Of a stretch of DNA of 64,000 bases, positions 15,391 to 51,362 are shown piece after piece. Source of the stretch: an uncultured Treponema sp. (lineage in GTDB: Bacteria > Spirochaetota > Spirochaetia > Treponematales > Treponemataceae); assembly GCA_947165895.1 (NCBI GenBank), contig CAMVCB010000005.1, positions 310,001 to 374,000 on the forward strand. The letters run 5' to 3'. Both the position numbers and the translations under genes were made by a program. How positions within the stretch are numbered: the stretch's first letter is position 1; the number at the start of each line of letters is the position of its first letter. Below the pieces are notes generated by a model. That model did no database searches, was not told the DNA's origin, and saw nothing but the letters and a program-made list of their open reading frames with translations.

Positions 15391-15476
15391 TTTTTTGCCT
15401 GAAAGATTTCTCTCCACTCCTATTGTATAAACATAATAAAAGTGGAAAGGTTTCGGCAAGAATAATCGCGTTTAAT

Positions 15477-15550
15477 ATGTTGCGGTCGTAATGCTAATTG
15501 CAAATGAAAGTTCATAGTACCGCAACATCAAGTTTGCATTCGCAAACTTG
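15477..15550 (-). repeat. Two-hairpin intergenic element, copy 1
   Basis: On the minus strand, 4 bases after the potD stop, hairpin A (CAAGTTTGC / GCAAACTTG, 4-base loop) abuts hairpin B. B has 10-bp arms, ATGTTGCGGT / ACCGCAACAT, around a 32-base loop. The same order of related hairpins follows the gene ending at 51262. No T run follows, so it does not look like a plain intrinsic terminator. Confidence 0.75.
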
Positions 15551-15554
15551 ACAA

Positions 15555-16601
15555 TTAATCGGCCGAGAAGCGGATTGATTCCCAGTATTCGTTGAAGGTT
15601 TCCAGGTCTTCGCCTACATCAAGCTTGAGTTCACAAGACTCCATTTCTTCTGCCTTGTACATAGGGCTTGTTGTTCTGAGTGTTTCTGCTGCCGGATTTA
15701 CAAAGCCCGGGAAGCGGAACTCGTCAAGGAATTTAACGTATTCTTCCGGACGGTGAATAAAGTTGATGAACTTCATTGCAAGGTCGTAGTGTCTTGCGTT
15801 CTTCAAAATTACCATAGAGTCAACGTACATAGGGCCGCCCTCTGGAGGAATAAAGAAGTCAATCATTTCTTTCTGGCGCTCTTCCGGAACTTCACCGTAA
15901 ACAACTTCAGCATAACCCTGGCAAACCCAGAAATCTTCGTTTGCAAAGGATTTTCCAAAGCCTTCTGCGTCAAATTTAACAAGATTTGGCTTCCATTTCT
16001 GGTTGATGTAGTCTGTAATATCGCCTAAAACCTTGCGGTCAACTGTGTTTACAGAATAACCTTTGAGGGCAAGGGCATCTCCCATAACTTCGCGCATATC
16101 ATCCATCATTGTCATGTGACCCTTAAGGTCTTCGCGCTCAAAAATTGTCCATGATTTATTGTAATTATGAACCTTCTGCTTGTTTACGCAGATTCCGGCC
16201 GCACCCATGTAGTAAGGAACAGAATATTCCATTTCAGGGTCGAATGTAAGCTTTTCAAGAACCTTTGGATTGATATTTGAAGCATTTGTAAAGGCTGCTT
16301 TATCAATCTTTTTAAGCATTCCCTGCTTAATCATAATTGAAGTGTAGTCCTGAGACGGGAAGGTTATGTCGTAACCGTCTGCACCAGCCTTAAGCTTGGC
16401 ATACATAACTTCGTTTGAATCAAATGTATCAACCTTAACCTTGCAGTTATACTCTTTTTCAAAATCCTGAAGAACAGAATCCGGAGTATAGTAGGTCCAG
16501 TTAAAGAGATAAAGTGTATTATCATCCTTTTTTCCGCAAGATGATAAAGAGAGAAGGGCTGCCAGAAGTGCAGCGCCGGTAAGAAGACTTGATTTTTTCA
16601 T
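15555..16601 (-). CDS. potD: Spermidine/putrescine-binding lipoprotein PotD
   Basis: Solute receptor of the polyamine ABC importer. Signal peptide and lipobox LSLSSCGKK give Cys22. The mature protein begins LYLFNWTYYTPD, the classic PotD opening. YDITFPSQDY and the acidic/aromatic polyamine contacts WVCQGYAEVVYGEVPE follow. Length of 348 residues is normal. It is the last gene of potABCD, about 75 bases after potC, and is followed by a two-hairpin element that may stabilise the 3' end. Confidence 0.94.
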   Translation of the reverse strand: MKKSSLLTGAALLAALLSLSSCGKKDDNTLYLFNWTYYTPDSVLQDFEKEYNCKVKVDTFDSNEVMYAKLKAGADGYDITFPSQDYTSIMIKQGMLKKIDKAAFTNASNINPKVLEKLTFDPEMEYSVPYYMGAAGICVNKQKVHNYNKSWTIFEREDLKGHMTMMDDMREVMGDALALKGYSVNTVDRKVLGDITDYINQKWKPNLVKFDAEGFGKSFANEDFWVCQGYAEVVYGEVPEERQKEMIDFFIPPEGGPMYVDSMVILKNARHYDLAMKFINFIHRPEEYVKFLDEFRFPGFVNPAAETLRTTSPMYKAEEMESCELKLDVGEDLETFNEYWESIRFSAD

Positions 16602-50992: not shown

Positions 50993-51262
50993 ATGAATGC
51001 TATTATCACAGTTGTTGGTTCAGATAAAGTTGGAATTATTGCTAAGGTTTCGGAATTTCTGGCAAGTCATTCGGTAAATATTGCCGACATTACACAGACT
51101 ATCCTTTCGGGAAACTTTGTAATGATGATGATGGTTGATTTGTCTAAAGCTGATGTTGCCGTTGACCAGCTCCGCGATTCTTTGACAAAAAAAGCCGAAG
51201 AAATGGGAGTTGAAATCAACGTAATGGCAGAAAAAGTTTTTACAACTATGCATAGAATTTAA
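50993..51262 (+). CDS. ACT-domain protein of the UPF0237 family
   Basis: An 89-residue protein consisting of one ACT domain. It starts AIITVVGSDKVGIIAKVSEFL, with the ligand-loop Gly after the first strand, and contains VNIADITQTILSGNFVMMMMVD, hallmark of UPF0237. Members are presumed to bind an amino acid as a regulator. AGAGG precedes the ATG. Its position 10 bases after the transcarbamylase gene suggests co-transcription and an amino-acid sensing role in that pathway. Confidence 0.9.
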   Translation: MNAIITVVGSDKVGIIAKVSEFLASHSVNIADITQTILSGNFVMMMMVDLSKADVAVDQLRDSLTKKAEEMGVEINVMAEKVFTTMHRI

Positions 51263-51264
51263 TG

Positions 51265-51340
51265 CAAGTTTTTGCTTTGCAAAAACTTGTGGTGGCGGTA
51301 AGTCAACTTATAGCTGAAAAAAGTATTTTTACCGCCACCA
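51265..51340 (+). repeat. Two-hairpin intergenic element, copy 2
   Basis: Two bases after the ACT gene stop, hairpin A (CAAGTTTTTGC / GCAAAAACTTG, 3-base loop, 11 bp) abuts hairpin B. B has 12-bp perfect arms, TGGTGGCGGTAA / TTACCGCCACCA, around a 27-base loop. Order, spacing and core letters match the element after potD (15477-15550, minus strand). A convergent gene ends 22 bases further on. Confidence 0.8.
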
Positions 51341-51362
51341 AATGCACAGAGTTTAATGCAGT

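Follow-up and report, generated by a model that had tools for sequence, protein, structure and literature searches.

Paired palindromes at stop codons in Treponema genomes: a probable family of non-autonomous mobile DNA

Two double-hairpin elements behind stop codons

The window, a stretch of 64,000 nucleotides from an uncultured Treponema sp., contains two copies of a double-hairpin element. As the sequence-only reading had described, each of them lies directly behind a stop codon. Copy 1 (15477..15551, minus strand) follows a potD-type gene, identified using Pfam as encoding a solute-binding protein, whose 3′ end including the stop codon occupies 15555..15572 on the minus strand (TTCTCGGCCGATTAA, the upstream gene-end copy). 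Hairpin A of this copy (15528-15551; CAAGTTTGC-GAAT-GCAAACTTG) is located 3 nt past the stop codon on the minus strand and is formed by the arms 15528-15537 and 15542-15551. It is abutted by hairpin B (15477-15528; ATGTTGCGGT-(32 nt)-ACCGCAACAT) with the arms 15477-15486 and 15519-15528. Comparison of locus L334 with the window identified the sequence ATTAA adjoining hairpin B (15472..15476, minus strand) as a short gene-end remnant.

Copy 2 (51264..51340, plus strand) starts 1 nt past the stop codon of an ACT-domain gene and consists of hairpin A at 51265-51289 (CAAGTTTTTGC-TTT-GCAAAAACTTG; arms 51265-51275 and 51279-51289) and hairpin B at 51290-51340 (TGGTGGCGGTAA-(27 nt)-TTACCGCCACCA; arms 51290-51301 and 51329-51340). 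The 3′ end of the ACT gene (51248..51262, plus strand; ATGCATAGAATTTAA, MHRI*) is present a second time 1 nt past hairpin B (51342..51356, plus strand; ATGCACAGAGTTTAA, MHRV*), a direct repeat overlooked in the earlier reading.

Folded as single strands, the two copies displayed z = -4.7 (copy 1) and -6.9 (copy 2), and none of 200 dinucleotide shuffles was as stable. A mechanical search for abutting hairpin pairs in the window recovered these two alone; in the shuffle control, for which the script's first version was applied to three Markov sequences, none produced a hit. There is no T run at either window copy, as had been claimed. The GCGGT/ACCGC core reported for hairpin B is present in the window copies but is not universal, as elsewhere GCGATGG, GCAAAGG, TGCAAATGA and further sequences take its place. 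The Rfam search of the window returned two tRNAs only and no match for the element.

Copy number and distribution of the family

The unit is composed of hairpin A (9-12 bp, short loop) and the abutting hairpin B (8-12 bp, loop of about 32 nt), and its total size is about 75-80 bases. From a structural alignment of ten copies (A2) we built the covariance model R1, whose training set included only two copies from the genome of the window species. Using this model at E<=0.01 we identified at least 28 copies in that genome, 26 of them outside the training set. It also detected copies, in a patchy manner, in 62 of the 196 genomes of the genus; at the level of the order, 2 of 82 genera had any. The covariance-model search suggested on the basis of the two window copies revealed a large family, which is scattered over Treponema genomes from rumen and gut. 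A 270 kb sample of the own genome, chosen irrespective of the element, yielded 22 copies with a second model, R2, and 19 of these are located outside called genes. The weaker R2 matches that were inspected keep the double hairpin and the loop core and look genuine. By extrapolation, this density implies in the order of 200 copies per genome. The window copies themselves score 78.1 bits (copy 1) and 77.6 bits (copy 2) with R1, and 72.2 and 73.8 bits with R2.

The nearest cultured relatives are Treponema sp. JC4 and C6A8. At the orthologous ACT and potD loci in related genomes, the unit follows the stop codon in some species and nothing comparable is present in others. Three matches in viral contigs were judged to be due to chance. 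In the open-access literature that we searched, no description of the element was found. Some shorter R1 matches (L179 and matches of 57-59 nt in the genomes G057, G086 and G171) may represent a different repeat family. Several copies in the own genome (L294, L298, L299 and L301) are situated inside a CCACAGATTAACACAGAT-type repeat, one of them with the inverted flanks GGACACGGATT/AATCTGTGTCC.

Complementarity is kept while the arms change

In the ten copies of A2, pairing amounts to 95.7 %, with 43 two-sided changes and not a single one-sided change. Standard pairs make up 95.4 % of the paired cells in 85 distinct copies, for which we counted 456 two-sided changes (shuffle mean 108) against about nine one-sided ones, which are of the G-U type. 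The compensatory pattern proposed earlier from two copies is therefore real and strong. G-U pairs are almost absent among about 1,500 paired cells. As selection at the RNA level normally leaves many G-U intermediates, their scarcity suggests that it is on DNA that the arms need to be perfectly complementary, or else that one arm serves as template for the other. The constraint looks to act at the DNA level, on DNA palindromes, rather than to result from RNA selection.

The scarcity of G-U pairs also bears on the reading of the element as a cis-acting 3′UTR RNA (terminator, mRNA stabiliser or translation-lowering hairpin) selected for its RNA structure. Although such an RNA would fit the location directly after stop codons, the strong RNA folding and the report that REPs closer than 16 nt to the stop codon can lower translation (PMC12306157), it agrees poorly with the near absence of G-U pairs, with the occurrence in both orientations including copies whose hairpin B faces the stop of a convergent gene, with the missing Rfam match and with the patchy distribution among relatives. 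A T-run after hairpin B (>=6 T in 9 nt) is present in only 2 of 69 copies, and an intrinsic terminator, i.e. a GC-rich hairpin with a T-run, was rejected on this count. We regard selection as an RNA structure as quite improbable; an effect on mRNA, including its 3′ ends, or on translation is plausible and would be a side effect.

Arms tend to be common to the copies of one genome, e.g. GGGAAACGC in nearly all copies of G027 and GGTAACGGT in G097, and between lineages they are replaced wholesale. Because of these wholesale changes, a protein-binding site with a fixed sequence, one of the options raised previously, is unlikely. Commoner than the arm cores are the loop pattern, approximately GGTTAnG...AACTTnnAnTT...ATTACGACC, and the hairpin A sequences AGTTTTGC/GCAAAACT. 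The copies of G097 (L220-L227) and G027 (L240-L253) have more upstream sequence in common, as though they belonged to a larger element; those of G097 carry an extra hairpin, GCAAAACTTCGTTTTGC, and some have an outer stem AGTGGA/TCCACT.

Structure kept without sequence is also what attC sites display, and integrons have been described in Treponema denticola (PMC4909258). The copies could in that case be recognised as single-stranded hairpins by the tyrosine recombinase of an integron-like system, and hairpin-structure recognition as such is plausible here. The 3′-terminal position of the unit in a cassette-like stretch and the array-like tandem units would suit this reading, but the R boxes (RYYYAAC/GTTRRRY) were found at both ends in 0 of 69 copies, the element consists of two separate hairpins instead of one imperfect palindrome, and its copies are dispersed and do not form one array. 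We consider an attC origin very improbable.

Position at stop codons and repeated gene ends

In the 270 kb sample, 10 of 22 copies have a facing stop codon no more than 3 nt away (7 of 22 when counting -3..+3 only), compared with 3.2 % of random intergenic points having a stop equally near. The copies are clustered at stop codons. In a wider set, hairpin A is located at most 25 nt from the upstream stop codon in 26 of 64 copies, and in about 10 of 64 the stop codon of a convergent gene is no more than 3 nt away from hairpin B. The element occurs in either orientation relative to genes.

In copies with preserved flanks, the sequence in front of hairpin A recurs behind hairpin B, usually over 13-25 bp (range 13-44 bp), and in many cases the repeat is the gene's own 3′ end including the stop codon. 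The direct repeat exceeds the 99th percentile of mispaired flanks in 12 of 69 copies. Among the 21 repeats listed, 18 begin 0-1 nt past hairpin B and 14 end at most 5 nt from hairpin A. The repeat at L153:8225 is perfect over 18 bp; others are GTNTATTTGAAACGTTAA at L080, GAGCCGGTGCATA at L075 and one of 44 bp in L116. In the unselected sample, 7 of 22 copies reach a repeat score of at least 9, all beginning 0-1 nt past hairpin B. Most copies are now without clear direct repeats, and the potD copy of the window retains just ATTAA past hairpin B; both points weigh against insertion with a flanking repeat. At L153:8225 and L133 the stop codon is contributed by the element itself.

Direct repeats, together with the small size and the copy number, would be expected if the element were an ordinary MITE belonging to some known IS family whose DDE transposase makes an unusually long target duplication. 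The element resembles MITEs such as RUP and Correia in being small, non-autonomous and dispersed, and in its flanking direct repeats, which may be target duplications: they are present and flush in a clear subset, but their two copies differ mostly synonymously. Moreover, TG precedes hairpin A in 20 of 69 copies and CA is found at the 3′ end in 31 of 69. However, terminal inverted repeats are absent (the two ends of a copy match by 2.2 nt on average and mispaired ends by 2.3), the repeats are longer than those of RUP and Correia, variable in length (13-44 bp) and often the coding end of a gene, and among the loci read we saw no IS whose ends are of this kind. An ordinary MITE is in our opinion improbable.

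The two copies of a repeated gene end differ mostly synonymously. Across 18 loci, we counted 20 synonymous, 6 nonsynonymous and 6 stop-to-stop differences, in a sample biased by the scan itself, which required a conserved stop codon. As a noncoding copy decaying after duplication should differ mostly nonsynonymously, simple target duplication followed by decay fits poorly. The synonymous excess suggests that some insertions came with a foreign gene end, either by homologous exchange or by a dedicated process. At L133, the C-terminus encoded upstream differs from the downstream one.

Empty sites and a mosaic potD gene

The potD site of JC4 is empty and its flanks can be aligned: it reads ...GCTGACTAA-AACGATTATTCTTGCCG, and the same site in the window reads ...GCCGATTAATTG-(element)-ATTAAACGCGATTATTCTTGCCG, with the sequence beyond ATTAA matching the empty site of JC4. 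Two further filled/empty pairs were recovered, as the copies G000:C4:159291 (G000 being the own genome) and G023:C8:113329 are each missing from the other genome. In both cases the element-free allele carries at the junction a stretch resembling the right arm of hairpin B (CGAACCAA; CCATTGT), which could be either an excision scar or a target preference and is not explained by clean insertion. These two pairs suggested that the target provides the sequence of the hairpin B arms, an idea that was not borne out at the L130 and ACT loci. No empty site could be located for L153:8225, as relatives carry extra genes there.

The situation in isolate RUI115 (G052) is more complex. The body of its potD gene is nearest to that of C6A8 (identity 0.98-1.00 over nt 600-900), the approximately 18 nt leading up to the element agree with the window species, and past the element comes the native end of C6A8, TTTTAGTGCAGACTAAA, which encodes the same FSAD-stop with other codons. 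Judging from these sequences, the upstream gene-end copy and the element look foreign in RUI115, with the native end behind them. In isolate RUG517 (G023) both potD end types are present in reversed order.

These gene ends allow for a different reading, in which a cassette composed of a gene end, hairpin A and hairpin B enters the matching gene end in another species and displaces the native end downstream. Some integrative elements and prophages (icd/e14 type) integrate into a gene at its 3′ end, which they reconstitute, and the likeness to them consists in a functional but synonymously different gene end, with the native end displaced behind the insertion; the element differs in being only about 80-100 bp long and encoding nothing. 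The RUI115 mosaic, with its C6A8-like body, window-type end and C6A8 end behind the element, is what such a cassette would produce, and the predominance of synonymous differences, the two end types of RUG517 in reverse order and the differing C-termini at L133 point in the same direction. However, a close enough empty relative showing the mosaic is available at one locus only (RUI115), ordinary homologous recombination of an insertion allele could yield the same mosaic, and the requirement for a conserved stop biases the scanned sample. We treat the cassette as a tentative alternative. In its most specific form, a hairpin-coded mini-cassette of about 95 bp, made up of a copy of a gene's last codons and the two palindromes, would home to the matching gene ends of other species by means of a putative shape-reading recombinase, exchange the C-terminal codons synonymously and push the native end downstream. 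This is unlikely but worth considering, as the element would, if the cassette reading is true, be a minimal agent rewriting gene ends.

Relation to REPs and the search for a mobilising enzyme

The copies are mobile: they are numerous, dispersed and patchily distributed, direct repeats flank them, and in a relative one site is empty. The suggestion of a REP-like mobile element is borne out in this respect, but the element is not a REP by the GTAG/CGTC definition. In these two super-families, one end of the REP palindrome is marked by an unpaired tag, GTAG or CGTC (PMC3733652). At hairpin A we found such a tag in 3 of 69 copies, compared with a background of 3.6 % per 8-mer. The element resembles the REP/BIME systems with their RAYT transposases (IS200/IS605 type) in being a short, paired, extragenic palindrome of high copy number (22 in 270 kb, 19 outside called genes), often behind stop codons. 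It differs from them by the tag not exceeding background, by the direct repeats at its borders and by the lack of a Y1 transposase in its own genome. A RAYT (Y1) is expected for GTAG REPs, and CGTC REPs are without a dedicated one.

In the own genome (G000, 94 % complete) we detected neither a reverse transcriptase (PF00078, RVT_1) nor a Y1 transposase (PF01797, Y1_Tnp), the latter being present in 54 of 196 congeners. Both were rejected as mobilisers, since the own genome has neither and no clear link with copy number could be seen by eye. We searched the own genome for a long autonomous version using the pattern of hairpin A and the left arm; in every real match that was inspected, the right arm followed at the usual short distance. 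The family could not be linked to any known enzyme.

The element thus lacks a tested defining feature of REPs, MITEs and attC sites each, and is a REP/MITE-like mobile palindrome of a new type. We consider it probable that it represents non-autonomous mobile DNA made of two adjacent perfect palindromes, recognised as hairpins and inserted at stop codons with a flanking repeat. This proposal starts from what can be seen directly, namely the structure, the covariation, the copy number, the flanking repeats, the stop-codon bias, an empty site and the RUI115 mosaic. The mobilising enzyme would probably read the folded hairpins, as single strand or cruciform, and not the sequence of the arms. Insertion, in either orientation, would take place at a gene's stop codon or adjacent to it and would create the repeat by which the bases behind hairpin B match those before hairpin A. 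The gene would retain a complete end and a stop codon, sometimes supplied by the element. Recombination between the direct repeats might subsequently remove the element or multiply it to form a tandem array. Insertion alleles also appear to pass between species along with the upstream gene end.

Bacteria commonly contain small palindromic repeats, most of which are known as tagged REPs or as MITEs with inverted ends, and this family has neither. It combines clear insertion borders and a strong preference for stop codons with arms that change wholesale yet stay complementary. It could therefore serve as a natural system for studying how an enzyme recognises the shape of a hairpin, how insertion spares gene ends, and how elements spread between species in the rumen.

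Tandem arrays and unusual loci

Tandem arrays of the type (gene end - A - B)n were found at L044, L128, L129, L130, L132 and L133, as expected from exchange between direct repeats. The L128 locus (G137:C15:5800-8300) has about seven tandem units of approximately 176 bp adjoining a tRNA gene; in each, the element is accompanied by part of the tRNA 3′ end, by an inverted copy of the T-arm and by a terminator. Behind gyrA in the own genome (L141:16223-16703, corresponding to C4:36223-36703), three elements alternate with five parS-like palindromes that deviate from the TGTTTCACGTGAAACA type by 1-2 mismatches (expected number 0.3), so that the flanking repeats at this locus are the parS-like sites. 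The matching gyrA place in RUG517 harbours three copies with similar repeats.
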